Source: Acidobacteriota bacterium
Lineage (GTDB): Bacteria > Acidobacteriota > UBA4820 > DSQY01
NCBI GenBank assembly: GCA_040752915.1
Contig: JBFMHB010000024.1
Coordinates: forward strand, 1-42,438
Reading direction: 5' to 3'
DNA: 42,438 nt
A program made the translations under genes and the position numbers. The number at the start of each line of letters is the position of its first letter. Position 1 is the first letter of the stretch. The notes beneath the pieces are model-generated. The model saw only the letters and a list, made by a program, of their open reading frames with translations, was not told the DNA's origin and searched no databases. This document shows positions 3,227 to 18,262 of the stretch, one piece after another.

Positions 3227-6200
3227 ATGAGGCACGGCGCGGGTAAGGCCATCGGGCTGGCGGCGATGCTGGCGGCGTCCACGGTCTTGTGGGGGGCGGA
3301 GGACGGGTTGCGGGTCTTGAAGGCGGGCCCCGAGGGGGAGATCGCCACCCTCACCGAAGCCAACGAGATCCGGGTCGTTTTTTCGGAGCCCATGGTGGCC
3401 CTCGGGCGCATTCCCGATCCGGTCCGGGCCCCCTACTTCTCCATCCAGCCCGCCGTGGACGGGGTCTTTCGCTGGTCGGGGACGGACACCCTCCTCTTCA
3501 CGCCCAAGGCCCCCCTCCCCTACGCGACACGCTACACCGTGACCCTCGCCAGGGAGGCCCGGGCGGTTTCGGGCCGGAGCCTCGAAGAGGCCTTCTCCTT
3601 TTCCTTCACGACCCCCACGGTGCGGCTGAAGAGCGTCCGATGGTACCGCAAGGACGGCACGGTTCGATCGCCTGCGGTTCTGGTCCTCGCCTTCAACCAG
3701 CCGGTGAAGGCCGCCGAAGTGGTCCGCCACCTAAACCTCGTCTTCAAACCCCATTCCTGGGAGCCCCCGCCCCTGCCTCCGGAGGGCCTCTCCTGGCTCC
3801 GCAGGGAAGATCCCCAGGCCCTGGAGGACTACCAGTTCAAAGTCGCCGAAGCCACCCTGGCGGCGCGCTCGAACCGGCCCGTCCCCTTCGGCCTGGCCTC
3901 TTCCTGGGACGAGAAGCGTTTTCCCAAGCAGGACGAGATCGTCGTTCTGGAGACCGTTTCCGTGCCGCCGCCCAACGCCTGGATGGGCCTCGAGGTCGCC
4001 CCGGGCGTCCCCAGCCCGGCGGGGTCCGAAACGCCGGGGGAATTCCAGGGCTACACGGTGGAGCTGGAGCCGGCCTTCTTCGTGGAGGGCCTGCGCTGTT
4101 CGGTGGGGTGCAACCCGGACCGGTACAATCCCCTCCGGTTCACGACGCCCCTCTATTTGGCGGACTTGAAAAGGGGCTTTACGGTTCGGCGGGCCACGGG
4201 CCCCGATACCTCCGAACCGCTGGCCCGGGGCGAGGAGGCGGCGGAGGACGGGTCCTGGGACTACCCCAGCGTGGCCTGGTCCTTGGACCAGACCGGCTTC
4301 CCCTTCGGCGCGGCCCAGACCTTCGTCCTGAAACTGGACCGGAGCCTCCGGTCCGCCGACGGCCAGACCCTGGGCTACACGTGGGTCGGAAGCCTCGTCA
4401 ACCTCCACCGCATGGCCTTTTCGAGCTTCGAATCGGGCTTCGGTGTCTGGGAGGCGGCGGGAGGCCCGGTGGTCCCCTTCAGCGCCCGGAACCTCAAGTG
4501 GGTGGATCAGTGGGTCTCTCCCCTGCGTCCGGAGGGCCTCATGGAGGCCATCCGCGCCCTGTCGGTCCGGCCCTCCACCAAGGACCCCGACACGGGCGAG
4601 GTCCAGGACGACTGGAACTGGGAGCCCTTCCGCCTTCCGCCCCCCGGGGAGCCGGTGAAACGGCCCCTGCGGTGGGTCAGCGACAAGACCCAATTTTACG
4701 GGTTGGACCTGAGTCCGGCCTTGAACTCCCAGGGGAAGGGGCTCGTCTGGGCGGCGGTCCGCAACGGGGAGGCCATCGCCAACGCCAGTCTCGAGCCCGA
4801 CGGGCGGCCCAAGGCCACCCTCCTCCAGGTGACGGACCTGGGCATCACCGTGAAGGACAGCCCCCAGAACACCCTGGTCTGGGTCACCCGCCTCTCCGAC
4901 GGATCGCCCGTGGAGGGCGCGCGGGTCACCCTCCTCCAGCCCGGCGGCGCGGCCTTCTGGAGGGGCGTCACCGACGAGGCCGGGTTGGCCCACGCCGAGG
5001 AGACGCCCCTTCGAAACCCCGACGGCTGGTGGCGCTTCGCCTACGTCGTGACTGCCGAGAAGGACGGGGACGTGGCCTACGCCTGCTCCGACTGGAACGA
5101 GGGGGTGGAGCCCTGGTCCTTCGGCGCGGACCTCGACCTCTTCGAGGCCAAGCCCGTCTTGCGCGGGGCCGTGTTCCCCGATCGGGGCGTCTACAAGCTG
5201 GGGGAGGAGGTTCACCTCAAGGCCATCCTGCGCAGCGACACGGCCTCCGGCATGAAAGTCCCCCCCGAGGGGCAGAAGGTGGAGGTCGTCCTCAAGGACA
5301 GCCGGGACGGCGACGTGGACAAGCGCATCGTGACCCTGAACGCCTGGGGGGCCGCCGACTGGACCGTGAAGATTCCCGAGGAGGCCCCCCTCGGGACCTA
5401 CTCCATCAGCGCCACCGTCGAGGGCCACCACCGCTCCACCTACGACACCTTCCTCGTGGCCGCCTACCGGAAGCCCGATTTCCGGGTGGACGCCGCCCTC
5501 GGCGCCCCCGAGCGGGTGGCCGGCGCGACCCTGACGGGCTCGGTCTTGGGCCGCTACCTCTTCGGCGCGCCCATGGCCGGGAAGCAAGTCGCGTGGGTGA
5601 CCTCGCGCCGGCGCCTCTTCTCCGTGCCCCCCGCCGTTGCCGATGCCTACCCCGAAGAGCGCTGGGCCTTCTTGGATGAGGCCGGCTGGGGAAGGTACCG
5701 CTCCCGCGAGGAGGACGTCCTCGAGCGGAAGGAGGGGGCGCTGGACGCCCAGGGCCAGGTGAAGGTCGAGATCCCCACCCGGCCCGACGACGGTGTCGCC
5801 TACACCTACACCCTCGAGGGCACGGTGACGGACGTCTCGCGCCAGAGCCTCTCGGGCCGAGCCTCCCTTCCGGTCTATCCGGCGCCCTTCTTCGTGGGCC
5901 TTCGCCGCCCCGGCTATTTCGTGGACGCGGGCAAGGAGCTGGAGAACGAGGTGGTGGCCGCGGGGCTGGACGGCCTGGCCGTCCCGGGCGTGACGGTGCG
6001 CCTGTCCCTGGTCCAGGTGCAGTGGCACAGCGTCCGCCGCGCCGAGGGCAACGGCTTTTACACCTGGGAGTGCGAGAGGCGGGAGGTGGAGAAGTGGACG
6101 GGCGAAGCGGAGACGGCCGCAGAGCCGGTTCCCGTCCGGATCCCCGTCCTCGAAGGTGGCTACTACCTCCTCAAGGGCGAGGCGGGGGACGCCTCCGGCC

Positions 6201-9070
6201 GCCGGACCTCCTCCTCCGTCTCCTTCTACGCCCTGGGCGCGGGGTACACGGCCTGGGAGCGGTACGACCACAATCGCATGGACCTCGTCCCCGAAAAGAA
6301 GACCTACCGGCCCGGCGAGACGGCCCGCATTCTGATCAAGTCGCCCTGGGAGAAGGCCAAGGCCCTGCTCACGACGGAGCGCGAGGGCGTGAGAACCCGG
6401 AAGGTCTTCGACCTCACCTCCACCCAGCAGACGGTGGAGGTCCCCATCGGCGAGGAACACGTCCCCAACGTCTTCGTATCGGTCCTTCTCGTGAAGGGCC
6501 GCACGGAAGCCTTCACCACCGAAGACGCGAGCGACCCGGGAAAGCCCTCCTTCCGGATGGGGATGGTGGAGCTGAAGGTGGAGGACCGCTCCAAGCGGCT
6601 CGCCGTGTCCATCGAAACGGACCGCGAGGAGTACCGGCCCGCCGCCCGGGCCAAGGTCACGGTGGCGGTCTCCGATCCCGCCGGGAAGCCCGACGCCGCC
6701 GAAGTCACCCTCTGGGCGGTGGACTACGGCGTCCTCTCCCTGACGGGGTACAAGACCCCCGACCTGCTCCCCGAGGTCTGGGTGCCCAAGGCCCTTCAGG
6801 TCCTCACCCAGGACTCCCGCCAGCGCATCGTCTCCCGCCGCGTGCTGACGCCCAAGGGCGCCGACGAGGGCGGAGGGGGAGGCGCCGAGGACGGCCCGGG
6901 GACGATCCGGAAGGACTTCCGCGTGCTCGCCTTCTACCTGGGCTCCCTCGTCACCGACTCCCGTGGAAAGGTGACCACAGAAGTCACATTACCAGACGGA
7001 CTCACCACCTATCGCATCATGGCCGTGGCCCAGGACAAGGCCTCGCGCTTCGGGTGGGCCCAGCGCGAAATCCGCACGAGCAAGCCCCTCCTCCTCCTGC
7101 CCGCCTTCCCTCGGTTCCTCGCCCTGAAGGACCGGGCCTCCTTCGGGTGCGTCGTCCACAGCCGAATGAAGGAGCCCGGCACGGTGCGCGTCACGGCGAG
7201 GAGCCTCGATCCCGAGCGCCTGAAGATCACCGGGCCGGCGGAGACAAACGTGGAGGTCTCGCCGGGAGCCCCAGCCGAGGCCCGCTTCGCCTTTGAGGCC
7301 GTGGGCGTGGGAAGGGCCCGCCTGCGGCTCGAGGCCCGGCTCGAGGGCGAGGCGGATGCCCTGGAAGAGTCCCTTCCCGTGGAGCTTCTCGTTTCCCCCG
7401 AGGTGGTGGCCGCCTACGGCCAGGCCCGGCCCGACGCCGCCGAGGCCCTGGAGGTCCCCCCGGGCGCCGTGGCCGATTTCGGAGGCCTCGACCTCGAACT
7501 CTCTTCCACGGCCCTGGTGGGCCTGGGCGAGGGCGCGCGCTACCTCGTGGACTATCCCTACGGCTGCGCCGAGCAGAGGTCCTCTTGCGCCCTGGCCCTG
7601 GTCCTCGCGTCGGACCTCGGCGACGCCTTCTCGCTTCCCGGCATCGAGCCGGAAAAACTGCGCTCCATCTCGCAGAGGACCCTCAAGGACCTGGAGGCCT
7701 ACCAGTGCGAGAACGGGGGGTTCGTCTACTGGAAGGGGGACCCCTGCTTCTACGCCTCCGCTTACCTGACGAGCTACGTCCTGCACGTCTACCAGAGGGC
7801 CCAGGGGCTGGGCTACGCGGTGAATCCCGCGGTCCTCCAGAAGGGCTACGGCTACCTCGAAGGGGAGCTGAACCGTCCCCACCCGGGTAACGAGGGGTGG
7901 TGGCCCGCCTACACCGCGTGGCAGGCCTTCTCCGTCAAGGTCCTCTCCGAGGGCGGCCGCAACGTGGACAGCCACCTCACTCGGCTCCACGGCTACGCGG
8001 ACCGCATGCCGGTCTTCGCCCTGGCCTACCTCGCCGACGCCATGCGGGCCTCCGGCCGCTTCGAGTCGGAGCGCGCCTCCCTCCTCAAGCGCATGGACAA
8101 CGCCATCCTTCCCGAGGGCGGGTCGGCCCACGTGGAGGAACTCTCGGACCCGTACCTGCTCTGGTTCTGGAACTCGAACGTGCGCTCCACGGCCATCGTT
8201 CTGAGGACCTTCGTGAAGGAGCCCTCGCGGGAGGAACTCGTGACCCGGATGGTCCGGTGGCTCCTGAAGGTCCGGGAGAAGGGCCGCTGGGGCAACACCC
8301 AGGAGAACGCCCTGTGCATGGAGTCTCTGGTGGACTACTACCGGGCCTATGAAAAGGAGATCCCCGATTTCACGGCCCTCGTCTCCCTCGGCGGGGACCC
8401 GGTCGCCTCGAAGGGCTTCCAGGGACGGTCGGCCCAGGCCTGGAAAAAGTCCCTGCCCATGCCCGGTATCCTGGCCCGGGGCCCGGCGGGAACGCGGCTT
8501 CCCCTCGCCTTCAAGAAGGAGGGAACGGGGACGCTCTTCTACGCGGCCCGCCTCAAGTACGCCGTGGACACGCTCTTCCAGGAGGGTCTGGACGCGGGGA
8601 TGCGGGTGGCCCGGACCTACGAGCCCTTCACGGAGAAGGGGGGCGCGGAGCCCTCCCGGACCTTCAAGGCCGGGTCCCTCGTGCGCGTCACGATCACCCT
8701 CGACCTGACCAAGGAGCGGCGGTACGTGGCCGTGACGGACCCGCTTCCCGCGGGCTTCGAGCCCGTGGAATCCTGGTTCGCCACGACGGCGCGGGACCTC
8801 GTCCGCGCCCAGAACGCTCCGGGGGAGGAGGACGCCGGGTACGACTGGACCGCCTGGTGGCGCCGGGGCGGCTTCGACCACGTGGAGCGGCACGACGATC
8901 GCGTGCTCCTCTTCGCCACGCGGCTCTCCGAGGGGAAGCACGTCTTCTCCTACGTCTGCCGCGCCACGACGCCGGGGTCCTACCGGACGGCGCCCGCACG
9001 CGCCGAGGAAATGTACGAGCCCGAGGTCTTCGGAAGGACCGCCACGGACCAGATCGAAGTCGGCGAGTAG
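3227..9070 (+). CDS. Bacterial alpha-2-macroglobulin family protein with intact thioester
   Basis: 1947 residues, the usual size for large bacterial alpha-2-macroglobulins (E. coli YfhM family), which trap attacking proteases in the periplasm after bait-region cleavage. The order fits: signal peptide (1 to about 23, ending near LWGA), an SbsA/Big_5-like Ig domain (45-130), macroglobulin domains including the MG segment near 645 (GVYKLGEEVHLKA), a Gly-rich bait-like stretch (about 1207-1228), the A2M core (about 1231-1290), the thioester domain with C1447-A-E-Q1450 in context YPYGCAEQ, and a C-terminal beta domain (about 1790-1947). The CxEQ motif implies covalent capture. There is no lipobox cysteine, so unlike YfhM it is probably a soluble periplasmic or secreted protein. 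The ATG follows GGGGAGGGACC. The secreted NTF2-like gene follows after 57 bases, and pbpC, its usual partner in E. coli, lies 6.8 kb downstream. Confidence 0.95.
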   Translation: MRHGAGKAIGLAAMLAASTVLWGAEDGLRVLKAGPEGEIATLTEANEIRVVFSEPMVALGRIPDPVRAPYFSIQPAVDGVFRWSGTDTLLFTPKAPLPYATRYTVTLAREARAVSGRSLEEAFSFSFTTPTVRLKSVRWYRKDGTVRSPAVLVLAFNQPVKAAEVVRHLNLVFKPHSWEPPPLPPEGLSWLRREDPQALEDYQFKVAEATLAARSNRPVPFGLASSWDEKRFPKQDEIVVLETVSVPPPNAWMGLEVAPGVPSPAGSETPGEFQGYTVELEPAFFVEGLRCSVGCNPDRYNPLRFTTPLYLADLKRGFTVRRATGPDTSEPLARGEEAAEDGSWDYPSVAWSLDQTGFPFGAAQTFVLKLDRSLRSADGQTLGYTWVGSLVNLHRMAFSSFESGFGVWEAAGGPVVPFSARNLKWVDQWVSPLRPEGLMEAIRALSVRPSTKDPDTGEVQDDWNWEPFRLPPPGEPVKRPLRWVSDKTQFYGLDLSPALNSQGKGLVWAAVRNGEAIANASLEPDGRPKATLLQVTDLGITVKDSPQNTLVWVTRLSDGSPVEGARVTLLQPGGAAFWRGVTDEAGLAHAEETPLRNPDGWWRFAYVVTAEKDGDVAYACSDWNEGVEPWSFGADLDLFEAKPVLRGAVFPDRGVYKLGEEVHLKAILRSDTASGMKVPPEGQKVEVVLKDSRDGDVDKRIVTLNAWGAADWTVKIPEEAPLGTYSISATVEGHHRSTYDTFLVAAYRKPDFRVDAALGAPERVAGATLTGSVLGRYLFGAPMAGKQVAWVTSRRRLFSVPPAVADAYPEERWAFLDEAGWGRYRSREEDVLERKEGALDAQGQVKVEIPTRPDDGVAYTYTLEGTVTDVSRQSLSGRASLPVYPAPFFVGLRRPGYFVDAGKELENEVVAAGLDGLAVPGVTVRLSLVQVQWHSVRRAEGNGFYTWECERREVEKWTGEAETAAEPVPVRIPVLEGGYYLLKGEAGDASGRRTSSSVSFYALGAGYTAWERYDHNRMDLVPEKKTYRPGETARILIKSPWEKAKALLTTEREGVRTRKVFDLTSTQQTVEVPIGEEHVPNVFVSVLLVKGRTEAFTTEDASDPGKPSFRMGMVELKVEDRSKRLAVSIETDREEYRPAARAKVTVAVSDPAGKPDAAEVTLWAVDYGVLSLTGYKTPDLLPEVWVPKALQVLTQDSRQRIVSRRVLTPKGADEGGGGGAEDGPGTIRKDFRVLAFYLGSLVTDSRGKVTTEVTLPDGLTTYRIMAVAQDKASRFGWAQREIRTSKPLLLLPAFPRFLALKDRASFGCVVHSRMKEPGTVRVTARSLDPERLKITGPAETNVEVSPGAPAEARFAFEAVGVGRARLRLEARLEGEADALEESLPVELLVSPEVVAAYGQARPDAAEALEVPPGAVADFGGLDLELSSTALVGLGEGARYLVDYPYGCAEQRSSCALALVLASDLGDAFSLPGIEPEKLRSISQRTLKDLEAYQCENGGFVYWKGDPCFYASAYLTSYVLHVYQRAQGLGYAVNPAVLQKGYGYLEGELNRPHPGNEGWWPAYTAWQAFSVKVLSEGGRNVDSHLTRLHGYADRMPVFALAYLADAMRASGRFESERASLLKRMDNAILPEGGSAHVEELSDPYLLWFWNSNVRSTAIVLRTFVKEPSREELVTRMVRWLLKVREKGRWGNTQENALCMESLVDYYRAYEKEIPDFTALVSLGGDPVASKGFQGRSAQAWKKSLPMPGILARGPAGTRLPLAFKKEGTGTLFYAARLKYAVDTLFQEGLDAGMRVARTYEPFTEKGGAEPSRTFKAGSLVRVTITLDLTKERRYVAVTDPLPAGFEPVESWFATTARDLVRAQNAPGEEDAGYDWTAWWRRGGFDHVERHDDRVLLFATRLSEGKHVFSYVCRATTPGSYRTAPARAEEMYEPEVFGRTATDQIEVGE

Positions 9071-10447: not shown

Positions 10448-10542
10448 TCGGCTTCCTTGCCGGGGGGCCGGACCCCTCCAGCCCACCGGCGCCGGGACGC
10501 GCCTTCCTCAGACGCGCAAAAAGATCTTGGACAGGCATGATC

Positions 10543-10586
10543 CCAAATCCGAAATCCCAAATCTCAAGTCCGAAATCCCATATCCC
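10543..10586. repeat. Degenerate AAATCCG/AAATCCC repeat (right cluster)
   Basis: Imperfect period-7/8 copies of CCAAATCCGAAATCC-type words, matching the cluster at 10143-10168 in sequence and orientation. Confidence 0.65.
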
Positions 10587-10624
10587 CCATGCCCCTTCCG
10601 CCTTCCCTCTTCCCTCCACCCCCC

Positions 10625-10653
10625 TTGACAATCGCCTCGGGCCGCATTAGTGT
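10625..10653 (+). promoter_or_regulatory. Promoter of the GntR/ABC operon
   Basis: Perfect -35 TTGACA (10625-10630), a 17-base spacer and TAGTGT (10648-10653) as -10. The predicted transcript start is near 10660, 45 bases before the preferred GTG start at 10705. The -10 lies inside the operator palindromes. Confidence 0.7.
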
Positions 10654-10671
10654 ATTACTACACTAATACAC
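10647..10671 (+). promoter_or_regulatory. Overlapping palindromic operator, probably for the adjacent YtrA-type repressor
   Basis: Two perfect 8+8 palindromes interlock. TTAGTGTA (10647-10654) pairs with TACACTAA (10659-10666) around a 4-base centre, and GTGTATTA (10650-10657) pairs with TAATACAC (10664-10671) around a 6-base centre. They cover the -10 and transcript start, the classic place for repression, directly upstream of a GntR-family gene. Self-regulation is the natural inference. Confidence 0.75.
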
Positions 10672-10704
10672 ATGGCGCGGCCGGGCCGGGTGGGAGGTGA
10701 GACG

Positions 10705-11106
10705 GTGAGCACGAGGCTGAAGGTGGATCCGAGGTCCGCCGTGCCCCTCTGGAGGCAGATCGAGGAGGGGCTTCGCGGGCTGGTGGCCGCGGGCCTGCTC
10801 CGGCCGGGGGGGGGCGTTCCCTCCGTCCGGGAGCTGGCCCGGGAGCTGAGGGTGAACCCCGCCACGGTGGTCAAGGCCTGCCAGCGCCTGGTGGAGGCGG
10901 GGCTCTTCGAGGTCCGCCGCGGGGAGGGGACCTTCGTGGCGGCGAAACTCCCCCAGCCCGGAAGGGCCGAGCGCCGCAGGGGCCTGGAAGAGGGGGCGCG
11001 GCGGTACGCCGCCCAGGCCCTGTCGGTGGGGGCGGAACTCGAGGAAGCGTCGTCGGCGTTGGAAGTCCAGTGGGGGCGGCTGGCCGGAAAGGGGGAGGAG
11101 CGATGA
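10705..11106 (+). CDS. GntR-family transcriptional regulator, YtrA subfamily
   Basis: 133 residues from the GTG at 10705, chosen over the ATG at 10672 because GGAGGTG sits 7 bases upstream and because 10672 falls almost on the predicted transcript start. Residues about 12-75 form the GntR winged helix-turn-helix (LWRQIEEGLRGLV, then SVRELARELRVNPATVVKA, then VRRGEGTFVA). The tail is a short helical segment (about 90-133) rather than a ligand-binding FadR or UTRA domain, which marks the YtrA subfamily. Members repress linked ABC transporter operons and respond to drugs or envelope stress. Its stop overlaps the ATG of the ATPase gene (ATGA), so translation is probably coupled. The palindromes at 10647-10671 are the likely binding site. 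Confidence 0.92.
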   Translation: MSTRLKVDPRSAVPLWRQIEEGLRGLVAAGLLRPGGGVPSVRELARELRVNPATVVKACQRLVEAGLFEVRRGEGTFVAAKLPQPGRAERRRGLEEGARRYAAQALSVGAELEEASSALEVQWGRLAGKGEER

Positions 11107-12020
11107 CGGAAGCGGCAAGCGCGGAAAACGCCCTGGAGCTCAGGGGCGTGACCGTACGCTATGGAAAGGCGGTGGCCGCGAAGGGGGTGAGTCTCTCGGT
11201 CCCCGCCGGGGAGGTGACGGCCCTCCTCGGGCGCAACGGCGCGGGGAAGACCTCGCTGATCCGGGTCCTTCTGGGCATGCGGAAGGCCCAGGAGGGCGAG
11301 GCCCTTCTCTGGGGCAAGGATGCCTGGAAGCACCGCCACGAACTCCTGGAGCGGGTCGGCGTGGTCCCCGAAACGCCCGACGCGCCCGAGGACCTCTCGG
11401 TGCGGGACCTGCTCGCCTTCTGTTCCCGCCTCTACCGCACGTGGGACGGAAAGGGAGCGGAGGATCGGTTGGAGCGCTTCGGCGTCCCGCTCGGCGTTCC
11501 CTTCGGAAGCCTCTCCAAGGGGCAAAAAGGCCACGCCATGCTGGCCCTGGCCCTGGCCCACCGCCCGGACTTGCTCGTCCTCGACGATCCAACGCTGGGC
11601 CTGGACGCCGTGGCCCGGAAGGCCTTCTTCGAGGAACTGGTGGCCGACCTAGCCGATCGGGGCGCCGCGGTTTTCCTCTCCAGCCACGACCTCTCGGGGG
11701 TCGAGTCCATCGCCGACCGCGTGGCCTTTCTGAGGGAGGGGCGCCTTCTCCTCGACGAGCCGCTGGAGGGTCTCAAGGCGCGTTTCCGCCGGCTCTCCTT
11801 CCGGCGGGAGAAGGAGGCGGGAGAGGCGGCCCTCCGTCCGCTCGAACCGGTCTTCGTCCGCCGGACGGCCTTCGGCGAGGAGTCCGTCGTCGCCGCCTAC
11901 GAAGAGACGGCCTTCCACGGCTTCGCCTCCTCTCCGGGGGTAGCCGCCGCCGAAGCCTCCGAAATGTCCCTCGAAGAGATCTTCATCGCCCTCACCGGCG
12001 AGGAAGGAGGTGCCCCATGA
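11103..12020 (+). CDS. ABC transporter ATP-binding protein (YtrB/BcrA-like)
   Basis: 305 residues. The ATG at 11103 overlaps the regulator's stop and follows GGGGGAGGAG. Walker A is GRNGAGKT at 43-50, the ABC signature is LSKGQ at 137-141, Walker B ends in D161-D162 (LVLDDPTLGLD), and the H-loop is H195 in SSHD. The residue after the Walker B aspartate, normally the catalytic glutamate, is aspartate (D162), which may slow hydrolysis. The C-terminal 90 residues are an extension typical of ATPases that power two-component exporters. It ends in an ATGA overlap with the permease gene, so regulator, ATPase and permease form one tightly coupled operon. Substrate unknown; export of an antimicrobial, or lipid/envelope stress response, is plausible by analogy with YtrA-controlled transporters. 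Confidence 0.92.
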   Translation: MTEAASAENALELRGVTVRYGKAVAAKGVSLSVPAGEVTALLGRNGAGKTSLIRVLLGMRKAQEGEALLWGKDAWKHRHELLERVGVVPETPDAPEDLSVRDLLAFCSRLYRTWDGKGAEDRLERFGVPLGVPFGSLSKGQKGHAMLALALAHRPDLLVLDDPTLGLDAVARKAFFEELVADLADRGAAVFLSSHDLSGVESIADRVAFLREGRLLLDEPLEGLKARFRRLSFRREKEAGEAALRPLEPVFVRRTAFGEESVVAAYEETAFHGFASSPGVAAAEASEMSLEEIFIALTGEEGGAP

Positions 12021-14029
12021 GGGGATTCGCCGCCGTCTATATGCGGGAAGTGCTTCTGCGCAAGGCCGCTTTTGCAGCAGGGCTCGCGTCGGGCCTGGTG
12101 GCCGTCCTTCTCGGAGGAATTCTGCGCCGATACGGCTTCATGGACGTGGCCAACCTCGCCGCGGCTACCTTTTCAGTCCTCTTGGGCGGTTTCGGCGCCC
12201 TGGCCGTTGGGGCCTCCGTAATTCCTAATGACCTGAGCTCTGGAAAAATAGGCTTCGATTTTGCTCGGCCCGTTTCCGGTTGGGCCATCTGGGCGGGCCG
12301 CTTCCTAGGGGGATTTTCCGTGGTCCTCTCTATGGCGGTCCTCCCACTGGCGCCGGTGACGCTCCTGGGGGAAGGCCTGCTTCGAGATTTCACCGTGATC
12401 AATCCGGCGTATCTGCATGGAATCGGCGACTACCTTCTTACGCCCGCCGGCCTCTATGGATCCGCTGTGCTCGCCCTGCTGGCTCTGTACGCCGCCTCCA
12501 TCTGCCTCTGGTCCATCCTTCGCATTCCCTCGCGCTGGCTGGCCTTGGACGCCCTAATGGCTGGCGTGTTGTTCGTGGCGGGCATCCTCAGCCTGTCAAG
12601 CCCGGTCACCCTTCATTTCCCCGGCGCACGCTATGTCTATCTCTTCGTCCTGGGGATCGTCTTCCTTGGGGCTCTGGTCGGCACCTTCCTTCTGGTGGTT
12701 CGGGGCCGCACGGATGCGCGGCGGGCGAGGACGGCGGTCTCCCTGTCCCTCGGGGCATCCCTGTTTTCCGCCCTCCTCCTTCTAGGGGCCGGCTGGGCTT
12801 ATGTCGAGACGCGGGGTCCGAAGCACCTGCAGCGGCTCACCATGGGCGAACGCTCTCCCGATGGCCGCTGGTGGCTCCTCTCGGGAAGCCACGTCGGCAA
12901 GGATTGGCTGGGCCTCCCCACCTATCTGCTGGACGCACGGGAGGGGGGGCATCGCCGCCTGAGCTGGTCCACAACCGGGTGGGGGGACGCCGCCATCTCC
13001 CCCGATGGAAAATTCGTCGCCTTCATCGAGAATCGATGGTCCCAAGAGGGGGCGCATTGGTTACTCACCTGCCGAACTCTCTCTGGAGAAAGGAAATGGG
13101 AGATCTTGGGGCCTGCGGATGGATGGGATGAGCCCAGTAGAGGCGCCGTGACGTTCTCGCCTTTTGGGAAGCGCCTTCTCTTTCTGACGGGGGGGGAAGG
13201 TCAGGTCCTGGATGCCGATGACGGGAGTTCCTTGGCCTCCTTCCGCGTCGGAGCGGATGCGGACCTCTGGCTCAGCGGGCGCTTCGAGAGTGAGGACCGG
13301 GTCCGACTCTACTCGCGGATTCGGGACCGGAGCAGGAGGCGCCCGGGTTGGCCCTCCACCCCCCTTCTGGATACGGCCCACGTCGACCTCTGGCGCTTTG
13401 ATGTCCCCAGCCGAACGCTGACCCGGACGGGTACCCTGGATACCGCCTTCTATTTCTTCTGGCCTGTGCCGACCGGGGATTCGATCGTCGTCCGCTCGGG
13501 CCCGAAGGACGCTCGGGGCCTCGACCTCCATGATGGATCCACGGGGGTGAAAAAGGTTCACCTTCTGGAGGGCCAAGAGCGTGTCTGGCCCCTCGTGCTC
13601 GCCGACGGCCGGATTGTCTGCACGGCGAGGTCTCGCGGGGAGGCCTCCGATGTCCTGCGCGTGTTTTCGCCGGAAGGATCGCTCTTGAAGTCCATTCCCC
13701 TCCCCCCCCGCTTAAAGTTCAGTCCGGTGGATGAACTCGCAGGAGGGAACATCCTCCTCGGGTCCGGCCCCGAGAAGGGCAGAATCTCTGAGGGCGATGC
13801 GTACGTCGCAGATCCGGCCTGTGCAACCGCGGAGCCCATCCACGGCCTGCGCATCCATCAAGGCTATCCCCTGGCGGAGGGGCGCCGGATGTCGCCCGAA
13901 CGCGAAGGGCTCCTGGAGAGTGTGCTCCTTCTGGACAAGGACAACCGCCTCGTTCGGTACGACGTTCGAAGCAGAGAACGTCATCCACTCGTCCGCCTCC
14001 CTGCTCCGTCAAAGACCGGCTCGGGATAG
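12017..14029 (+). CDS. ABC permease fused to a predicted periplasmic beta-propeller
   Basis: 670 residues. The ATG at 12017 follows AGGAAGGAGG and overlaps the ATPase stop. Residues 1-262 hold about seven hydrophobic segments of ABC-2 permease type. The basic N-terminus and the basic loop between segments six and seven (RGRTDARRAR) place both in the cytoplasm, so the part after segment seven faces the periplasm. Residues about 265-670 carry beta-propeller signals of the TolB/PD40 kind: SPDGRWWLL (about 279), SPDGKFVAF (about 328), SPFGKRLLF (about 382) and later blade-like strands. ABC-2 permeases normally end after the membrane part, so this is a fusion. A sensor or substrate-docking role is inference. 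By eye the gene uses more A/T-ending codons than its neighbours, a weak hint of transfer. Confidence 0.88.
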   Translation: MRGFAAVYMREVLLRKAAFAAGLASGLVAVLLGGILRRYGFMDVANLAAATFSVLLGGFGALAVGASVIPNDLSSGKIGFDFARPVSGWAIWAGRFLGGFSVVLSMAVLPLAPVTLLGEGLLRDFTVINPAYLHGIGDYLLTPAGLYGSAVLALLALYAASICLWSILRIPSRWLALDALMAGVLFVAGILSLSSPVTLHFPGARYVYLFVLGIVFLGALVGTFLLVVRGRTDARRARTAVSLSLGASLFSALLLLGAGWAYVETRGPKHLQRLTMGERSPDGRWWLLSGSHVGKDWLGLPTYLLDAREGGHRRLSWSTTGWGDAAISPDGKFVAFIENRWSQEGAHWLLTCRTLSGERKWEILGPADGWDEPSRGAVTFSPFGKRLLFLTGGEGQVLDADDGSSLASFRVGADADLWLSGRFESEDRVRLYSRIRDRSRRRPGWPSTPLLDTAHVDLWRFDVPSRTLTRTGTLDTAFYFFWPVPTGDSIVVRSGPKDARGLDLHDGSTGVKKVHLLEGQERVWPLVLADGRIVCTARSRGEASDVLRVFSPEGSLLKSIPLPPRLKFSPVDELAGGNILLGSGPEKGRISEGDAYVADPACATAEPIHGLRIHQGYPLAEGRRMSPEREGLLESVLLLDKDNRLVRYDVRSRERHPLVRLPAPSKTGSG

Positions 14030-15898: not shown

Positions 15899-18262
15899 AT
15901 GGGCGGCGCCGCAAAGAGGTTCGGACACCTGGCGAGATCCAGGCGGGCGAGGGCCGCGGCGGCATTCCTTCTGGCGTCTATCCCGCTCGTCCTGTGGCTG
16001 CGCTGCGGGCCTCTCCCCGAGGGTTTCCTGGACCCTTCCGCCCACCAGTCCACCCAGGTGGTGGACCGCCGCGGCGCTCCCCTCTACGAGAGCCTTTCCG
16101 AGCGGGAGGGCCGGAGCGCGTGGCTGGCGCCCGACTCCTTGCCGGCAACTCTCGTAAACGCCACGCTGGCCGCCGAGGACGGGCGCTTCTTCCTCCACCC
16201 GGGCCTGGACCCGCTGGCCCTCGGCCGGGCCCTCTGGCACGACGCGAAGGCGGGGCGGATCAAGGAGGGGGGCTCCACCCTCACCCAGCAGGCCGTGAAG
16301 CGGCTCATGGGCCGGCCGCGCACCGTGGGCGGCAAGCTGAGGGAAATGGTCTACGCGCTCCGCCTGGAGCACCGGCTTTCCAAGCGGGAGATCCTGGCCC
16401 TCTACCTGAATCTGGCCCCCTACGGAAACCAGTTCGTGGGGGCCTCGGCGGCGAGCCGGGGTTACTTCGGCTGTTCGCCCCAAGACCTGACTCCGGCCCA
16501 GGCCGCCTTCCTGGCGGGGCTGCCCCAGCGCCCCACGGCCCTCGACCCCTACAAGAACCTGGACTCCGCCCTGGGACGCCAGCGGTGGGTGCTGGGCCGC
16601 ATGAGGGCCCTGGGGTTCCTGAATGGGGAGGACCATGGCCGGGCGTTGAGGGAGCGCCTGAAGGTGGGCCGTCCGGACCGCCCCTTCCTTGCGCCCCACT
16701 TCGTGGAGCGGGTCCTTGGCGGCCTCGAAGGGCGCAGGGCCTCCAGGGTGGAGACGGCCCTGGACCTCGACCTGCAGGGCGACGTCCGGGGAATCCTGGC
16801 GGCCGGTCGGGAAGCCCGCCTCGCCCATGGCGCCCACAACGCGGCCGTGGTGGTCCTCCTCAACGAGACGGGCGAGGTCCTGGCCTACGAGGGCTCCGGG
16901 GACTACTTCGACGGGGCCCACGGTGGGGCCATCGACGGCGCCGCCTCCCCGCGCCAGCCGGGGTCGGCCCTCAAGCCCTTCACCTACGCCCTGGCCTTCG
17001 AGAAGGGCTTCACGCCGGCTTCGGTCCTGCCCGACGTGCCCTCCCATTTCCCCACGGCCCAGGAGGGCGTCCTCTACGCTCCCCGCAACTACGACGGCGT
17101 CTTCCGGGGCCCCATGCGGGCGCGGGTCGCCCTGGCGGGTTCGGAGAACGTCCCCGCCGTGTACCTGCTCTCCAAGGTCGGCGTGGCGGACCTCCTGGGC
17201 CTGCTGAGGGCGGCGGGGTTCTCGACCCTGGACCGGAACGCGGACTTCTACGGCTTCGGGCTCACCCTCGGGGACGCCGAGGTCCGCCTCGACGAGGTGG
17301 CCGCCGCCTACGCGGCCCTGGCCCGCGGCGGCCTCTACCTCCCGCCTCGGCTCGTGCGGCGCGTCCGGTGGAGCGACGGCTCGTCCACTTCCCCGGCCCC
17401 CGCCGAACCCCGTCGGATCCTCTCTCCCCGCGCGGCCTTCTGGGCGGCCGATGTCTTGAGCGACCCCTCGGCGAGGGCGTGGGCCTTCGGTTCGGGAGGG
17501 AGCCTGGACTTTCCCTTCCCCGTCGCGGTCAAGACGGGCACCTCCCAGGCCTACCGGGACAACTGGTGCGTGGGCTTCACGCGGGAAGTCACGGTGGGGG
17601 TGTGGGTGGGCAACTTCGACCGGACGCCCCTGGTGAACTCCTCCGGCGTGACCGGCGCCGGGCCCCTCTTTCACGACGTGCTCGTGGCCGCCCAGCGGCG
17701 GGCGACGGGGCGCCTGCCCGGGCCCGCGGACCCGCCCCTCGCGGACCTTCCGGAGGGGCTCTCCCCCCTCGAAATCTGCGCCCTTTCTGGGCTGACCGCT
17801 TCGCCCCTGTGCCCGCGGGTGGAGAGGGAATGGCTTCCTCCGTCCGCCGCGCCGGTCTCGTGCTCGTGGCATGGAAAGGGTGGAACGGTGGCCTGGCCCT
17901 CCGAGTACCGGTCCTGGGCGCGGAGCGCCGGCCGGCTCGAGGAGGGCGCCACGGCCCTGCCTGCTCCGCCTCCGCCGGGGGGGGAGCGCCGCGCGTCGGC
18001 GCCACCCTTGGTCCTGCTCAATCCTCCCGCGGGGGCCGTCTACCTCCTCGACCCCACCCTCCGCCCGGGTTTTCAGACCCTACCCTTCCGCGCGGCGGCG
18101 GAGGGCCCTCCCCGCACCCTCCTCTGGCTCGTAGACGGCGCCGAGGTGGGGCGGGCCTCCTCCGACGGGAGCCTGGACTGGCCCCTGACACGGGGGACGC
18201 ACGTGGTGGAGGTCCGGGACGGCCGGGGGCACTCGGCCCGGGCGGAGATCGTGGTGAAGTAG
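15899..18262 (+). CDS. pbpC: Penicillin-binding protein 1C
   Basis: 787 residues, close to E. coli PBP1C (770). One membrane anchor (about 20-35) precedes a GT51 glycosyltransferase domain (about 65-240) with E93-DGRFF and E123-GGSTLTQQ, the two catalytic glutamates that polymerise lipid II. The transpeptidase domain has S356-A-L-K359 (SxxK), S415-E-N417 (SxN) and K545-T-G. The tail (about 680-787) is the C-terminal BiPBP_C domain specific to the 1C group. All catalytic residues are present. E. coli PBP1C is encoded beside the macroglobulin YfhM and is thought to repair peptidoglycan after attack; here the macroglobulin gene is in the same window but not adjacent. The start at 15899 has only a weak ribosome site (AAAGAG). 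Confidence 0.95.
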   Translation: MGGAAKRFGHLARSRRARAAAAFLLASIPLVLWLRCGPLPEGFLDPSAHQSTQVVDRRGAPLYESLSEREGRSAWLAPDSLPATLVNATLAAEDGRFFLHPGLDPLALGRALWHDAKAGRIKEGGSTLTQQAVKRLMGRPRTVGGKLREMVYALRLEHRLSKREILALYLNLAPYGNQFVGASAASRGYFGCSPQDLTPAQAAFLAGLPQRPTALDPYKNLDSALGRQRWVLGRMRALGFLNGEDHGRALRERLKVGRPDRPFLAPHFVERVLGGLEGRRASRVETALDLDLQGDVRGILAAGREARLAHGAHNAAVVVLLNETGEVLAYEGSGDYFDGAHGGAIDGAASPRQPGSALKPFTYALAFEKGFTPASVLPDVPSHFPTAQEGVLYAPRNYDGVFRGPMRARVALAGSENVPAVYLLSKVGVADLLGLLRAAGFSTLDRNADFYGFGLTLGDAEVRLDEVAAAYAALARGGLYLPPRLVRRVRWSDGSSTSPAPAEPRRILSPRAAFWAADVLSDPSARAWAFGSGGSLDFPFPVAVKTGTSQAYRDNWCVGFTREVTVGVWVGNFDRTPLVNSSGVTGAGPLFHDVLVAAQRRATGRLPGPADPPLADLPEGLSPLEICALSGLTASPLCPRVEREWLPPSAAPVSCSWHGKGGTVAWPSEYRSWARSAGRLEEGATALPAPPPPGGERRASAPPLVLLNPPAGAVYLLDPTLRPGFQTLPFRAAAEGPPRTLLWLVDGAEVGRASSDGSLDWPLTRGTHVVEVRDGRGHSARAEIVVK

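Follow-up and report, generated by a model that had tools for sequence, protein, structure and literature searches.

The window analysed here, a stretch of 42,438 nucleotides from an Acidobacteriota bacterium (contig JBFMHB010000024.1), carries a compact unit of three forward-strand genes, encoding a GntR-family regulator, an ABC ATPase and an ABC-2-type permease that continues into a C-terminal beta-propeller (Table 1). The original prediction held that all three genes are joined by start/stop overlaps, and both junctions were indeed located, at 11103-11106 (gntR/ATPase) and at 12017-12020 (ATPase/permease). Third-position GC is 0.74 in the permease gene and 0.86-0.94 in the adjoining genes. 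The operon is flanked upstream by a gene at 3227-9070 and downstream by one at 15899-18262, which by reading we take to be alpha-2-macroglobulin-like and penicillin-binding protein 1C-like, respectively. Genes of these two kinds usually adjoin each other elsewhere. Neither was found near the operon in the relatives, so function was not deduced from the flanking genes.

Table 1. Features of the permease-propeller operon and its upstream region (positions in the window)
Feature	Coordinates	Strand	Basis
Putative -35 box, TTGACA	10625..10630	+	Sequence reading; TTGACA-like box in most palindrome-bearing operons
Putative -10 box, TAGTGT, 17 nt after the -35 box	10648..10653	+	Sequence reading, inference
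Operator-like palindrome, GTG-TATTACTACACTAATA-CAC, with TGTA-N12-TACA inside	10650..10671	+	Upstream-region comparison
gntR, YtrA-type repressor, 133 aa from GTG 10705	10705..11106	+	PF00392, 52 bits; nearest YtrASa 6sbs
ABC ATPase, 305 aa, ABC-2/ABCA type	11103..12020	+	PF00005, E 7e-24; nearest solved chains
Walker B, LLVLDDPTLGLD, Asp replacing catalytic Glu	11571..11606	+	Operon ATPase comparison
Fused permease-propeller protein, 670 aa	12017..14029	+	ORF reading, full-length homologues, profile search, AlphaFold2
Six-helix ABC-2 domain, residues 1-224	12017..12688	+	NosY profile match; ABC2_membrane matches in relatives
TM2-3 cytoplasmic coupling loop, residues 67-96	12215..12304	+	Conservation 0.58, mean K/R 4.0
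Basic TM6-7 loop, GRTDxRR motif, residues 224-242	12686..12742	+	Conservation 0.60, mean K/R 3.6
TM7, residues 243-261, helix beyond the canonical six	12743..12799	+	Hydropathy, charge, comparison with other permeases
Beta-propeller, residues ~268-660, about seven or eight blades	12818..13996	+	Profile, AlphaFold2, Foldseek

Homologues of the 670-aa protein cover its entire length, and a frameshift or assembly artefact as the origin of the fusion was ruled out, since dozens of genomes repeat it with the identical start/stop overlap. Using the membrane-domain profile, the permease family was retrieved from 48 of the 396 Acidobacteriota genomes sampled (34 of 210 genera); the copies are mostly fused, most open frames exceeding 560 aa. 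The named relatives are Acidobacteriota, Holophagae and Thermoanaerobaculales assemblies among them, and the window protein clusters in the tree with its own taxonomic family, on a long branch. The fusion and a YtrA-type gntR were found together across the phylum: the order gntR, ATPase, permease holds wherever the contig extends far enough, six more distant genomes each have an adjacent gntR and ATPase, and ATPase and permease genes overlap by exactly 4 nt in 28 of 34 adjacent pairs. Two loci carry tandem fused permease genes (L041, 4914-8675; L050, 6758-11129), so that heterodimers are possible there. No fused relative and no match to the regulator turned up among the plasmids searched. Anti-phage defence was considered as a role and rejected, PADLOC returning only generic P-loop and HTH matches.

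The assignment to the ABC-2 permeases, made in the original prediction, was supported through relatives. Pfam applied to the window protein alone gave no ABC2 match; the relative L063 passed the cut-off for ABC2_membrane_2 and the fused relative L094 that for ABC2_membrane_4, and a profile of the membrane domain searched against the PDB had NosY as its sole match (E=0.0014). Hydropathy of both the window protein and the average over 28 sequences recovered the seven membrane segments that had been claimed, near residues 20-33, 49-66, 93-119, 144-168, 172-197, 201-223 and 245-260, and the basic loop announced ahead of the seventh is present (FLLVVRGRTDARRARTAVS in the window protein, with 5 K/R). 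In NosY and four other permeases, the chain stops a few residues past TM6, mostly with an R-x-D-like motif. Here, the end of TM6 is followed by a conserved QVARGRTDxRRGH loop, beyond which the chain runs on through TM7 into the propeller; few family members were matched when the DNA was scanned for GRTDxRRGH. We therefore read the permease part as a six-helix ABC-2 core with one appended helix.

From the N-terminus onward, the mean number of K/R per loop is 3.6, 1.3, 4.0, 1.25, 2.0, 0.3 and 3.6, followed by 1.07 past TM7. Because of this pattern along the chain, the N-terminus is very probably inside and the C-terminus outside, which would leave the final ~400 residues out of the cytoplasm, as was originally proposed; the charge bias over the 28 homologues thus supports that claim. 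By this assignment the protein, with seven segments and its C-terminus outside, departs from the six helices and inside C-terminus of ABC-2 permeases. A topology in which TM6 represents the re-entrant helices, TM7 the canonical TM6 and the propeller an intracellular scaffold on a cytoplasmic C-terminus appears quite improbable. The spacing suggests that TM7 and a canonical TM6 are about equally distant from the TM4-5 motif, certain Pfam alignments extend to TM7, and several permease-only proteins (L055, L057, L059, L061, L062 and L063) keep TM7 and end in a short, strongly basic tail, with which an outside C-terminus fits badly for those proteins. However, a cytoplasmic C-terminus would place one of the most basic loops outside, with inside/outside K/R totals of 10.6/6.4 vs 13.2/3.9 for the seven-helix model, and TM6 is a solid hydrophobic stretch of ~20 residues followed by an R-x-D motif resembling canonical TM6 ends.

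The beta-propeller predicted after residue 265 was recovered by three approaches. A profile of the 28 homologues matched WD40 (designed and natural), YVTN (surface-layer protein) and TolB propellers in the PDB, with E values from 5e-25 to about 1e-9, over profile positions ~294-580; since the membrane-domain profile alone, used as an internal control, matches NosY only, these matches stem from the C-terminal half. AlphaFold2 run with 12 sequences gave ~30 strands over residues 271-660, with pLDDT 70-95 for most of 265-666, low confidence in the membrane domain and poor closure of the propeller ring (the run from a single sequence was poor, pLDDT 41, and was set aside). The best Foldseek matches of this model were beta-propeller proteins, among them DPP-IV, YVTN, TolB, Atg18 and NirF, with modest TM-scores (up to 0.56). 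PD40 reached 11.2 bits in the window protein, below the Pfam cut-off of 20.9, which makes the propeller invisible to Pfam on a single protein. In terms of profile and model, the blades of the C-terminal domain are well supported; a closed ring and the blade count stay tentative. The best conserved parts are the cytoplasmic loops (0.57-0.60); the propeller scores low (0.34) and keeps chiefly turn residues, as would be expected of a constant motor with a variable recognition surface.

Permease-only proteins of 265-273 aa were found in one genus (g30) and at L056, and the tree requires two separate changes to account for them; these independent origins indicate that the propeller is separable. 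Downstream of the permease-only genes, no separate propeller gene was found. The permease-only L056 (6039-6860) and the fused L040 (5526-7472) belong to the same genus and share their last residues, LLGGKR, which makes an in-frame internal deletion of the propeller likely in L056; the loss could be a genuine deletion or an assembly effect. The two loci constitute a natural plus/minus-propeller pair for probing the role of this domain.

The most unexpected feature of the operon, absent from the original prediction, lies in the ATPase. The solved chains nearest to this protein are ABCA1/A7/A3, Rv1218c and NosF, as would fit a type V system. Asp (LDDPTLGLD) stands in for the catalytic Glu after Walker B in 40 of the 42 operon ATPases compared (loci L033-L069 and L093-L098), permease-only operons included; only L067 and L068 keep the Glu, and their H-loop His is Gln. 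The other motifs of the window ATPase are intact (Walker A GRNGAGKT, signature LSKGQ, H-loop SHD), and Walker A, the signature and, in most, the H-loop histidine are preserved across the operon ATPases, so the departure from a canonical active ABC ATPase consists of the Glu to Asp change. All 14 clear Walker B motifs elsewhere in the source genome have Glu (three further pattern matches were spurious and left out), as do five readable ATPases from other phyla, one of them a NosF. Asp in place of Glu can still sustain hydrolysis. In exporters with two unlike sites, it is the degenerate site that shows the same change, and hydrolysis there is slowed (PMC7756269). As the operon has a single ATPase gene, both sites of the dimer would carry Asp; for an ABC ATPase that is apparently homodimeric, conservation of this residue predicts that each site hydrolyses slowly. 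The change favours a slow switch or a mechanical device no less than it favours export; export, and sensing or docking by the propeller, stay hypothetical parts of the original prediction.

The assignment of the regulator to the YtrA type was also supported. This subfamily combines a GntR DNA-binding domain with a short (~50 aa) C-terminal part (PMC4494728); PF00392 covers residues 28-89 of the 144-aa reading of gntR, leaving ~55 aa at the C-terminus, and the gene shares an ABC transporter operon preceded by a long palindrome. The nearest solved sequences include YtrASa (6sbs) and 2du9. GTG 10705 is more likely the start than ATG 10672, since GGAGG precedes it at 10693-10697 while the ATG abuts the operator. 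The palindrome, GTG-N16-CAC, overlies the putative -10 box and had gone unmentioned in the original prediction; GGTG-N16-CACC, with the same spacing, is quoted for a YtrA-like regulator of Xanthomonas citri (PMC6746942). Of 35 operons compared, 21 carry its inner motif TGTA-N12-TACA ahead of gntR, against 0.08 predicted from the background rate; a TTGACA-like box usually precedes the motif by 25-27 nt. The YtrA-type regulator would probably repress its own operon by binding this palindrome. Imperfect repeats of AAATCCGAAATCCC-like units, noticed by eye, lie at 10538-10590, after the upstream gene and before the promoter. One relative (L046, 7726-8628) has tandem gntR genes, so that heterodimers are possible there as well.

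Taken together, we give about even weight to the view that the operon encodes an autorepressed ABC-2 (type V) machine that moves or loads an attached recognition domain, NosDFY-like and most likely serving the envelope. Repressor dimers bound to the palindrome would keep the promoter shut until a signal comes from the envelope, after which a complex of two ATPases and two permeases would form, its two propellers reaching into the periplasm. When ATP drives the ATPases closed, the motion may travel through the coupling loops (TM2-3 and TM4-5) and TM7 to the propellers, whose ligand could be lipid-linked, a peptide or a protein. With Asp in the catalytic place, the cycles would be slow and switch-like, which suggests recognition joined to mechanical transmission or to extraction, as opposed to pumping in bulk. 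The homodimer, the outside propeller, autorepression and propeller movement through TM7 are all steps that we infer. The nearest working model would be NosDFY with its periplasmic partner fused onto the permease. By analogy with NosDFY, clnRAB and ytr, we propose envelope (lipid or cell-wall) homeostasis or a stress response as the likeliest role; both the NosDFY and the envelope-stress analogies are drawn through distant homology only. The permease-only relatives, from which it is seen that the propeller can be lost, count against this explanation.

Two other functions may be weighed against it. An ordinary exporter of drugs, peptides or lipids under YtrA-type control, with the propeller as a cap or stabiliser devoid of a recognition role, is a possibility of limited probability: permease-only versions survive in matching operons under the same regulator, and the ATPase is near those of exporters, e.g. 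Rv1218c and the ABCA proteins, but most copies keep the propeller across a large divergence, and a fast pump with its catalytic Glu replaced is unusual. A flux or ligand sensor, in which the propeller would perceive a signal from outside and the GntR repressor would be informed by the transport cycle, as in ClnAB-ClnR, seems improbable. ClnAB does contribute to ClnR-dependent induction in C. difficile (PMC6117091), gntR is always linked to the operon here, and the short C-terminal domains of YtrA regulators may restrict direct ligand binding (PMC4494728); on the other hand, the transporter here has no known physical link to the repressor, and the permease-only operons retain gntR, several of them also the palindrome. 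A bolder reading, which we hold rather unlikely, would be a phylum-wide class of ABC-2 proteins that are not pumps: with Asp at both sites of the ATPase homodimer, slow switching driven by ATP would move two propellers, tethered to the permeases, that read or remodel the envelope from its outer side, with feedback on the YtrA-type repressor.

Several known systems resemble this operon in part. NosD, the periplasmic partner of NosFY, is a separate beta-helix protein. NosDFY (PDB 7o0y), which serves the maturation of nitrous oxide reductase, is likewise a type V ABC-2 permease and ATPase linked to an extracytoplasmic beta-rich partner, NosY being the solved permease nearest to ours and NosF among the nearest ATPases. 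It differs in that NosD is a separate protein, the permease has six helices, the gene setting is nos rather than gntR and the NosF examined has LDEPT where LDDPT is found here; no nos genes were found around the operon, which sets it apart from NosDFY systems, whose nosD, nosF and nosY genes lie near nosZ/nosL. The ytrGABCDEF operon of Bacillus subtilis, for which recent work points to the lipid II cycle, also pairs a YtrA-type repressor with an ABC transporter, but has two ATPases, several membrane subunits and a separate YtrF, with no propeller described. Closer in layout, clnRAB of Clostridioides difficile comprises three genes for a YtrA-type regulator, an ATPase and a permease, the regulator repressing its own operon; it belongs to another phylum and no propeller fusion has been reported for it. 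Type VII machines (MacB, FtsEX, LolCDE) similarly transmit an ATP cycle to a periplasmic domain, but have four helices and carry that domain within the permease, whereas the present operon joins a propeller to the C-terminus of an ABC-2 fold. Other extracytoplasmic domains also occur at the C-terminus of ABC-2 permeases, in GldG-type and M1-peptidase fusions, which share the single chain and differ in the domain. In the literature searched, covered in part, no description of a propeller fused to an ABC-2 permease was found. Each part of the operon is of a known kind, the combination of an ABC-2 permease, an extra helix and a propeller under a YtrA-type regulator appears undescribed, and the few ABC-2 machines listed as acting through an extracytoplasmic domain would gain a case with covalent linkage.
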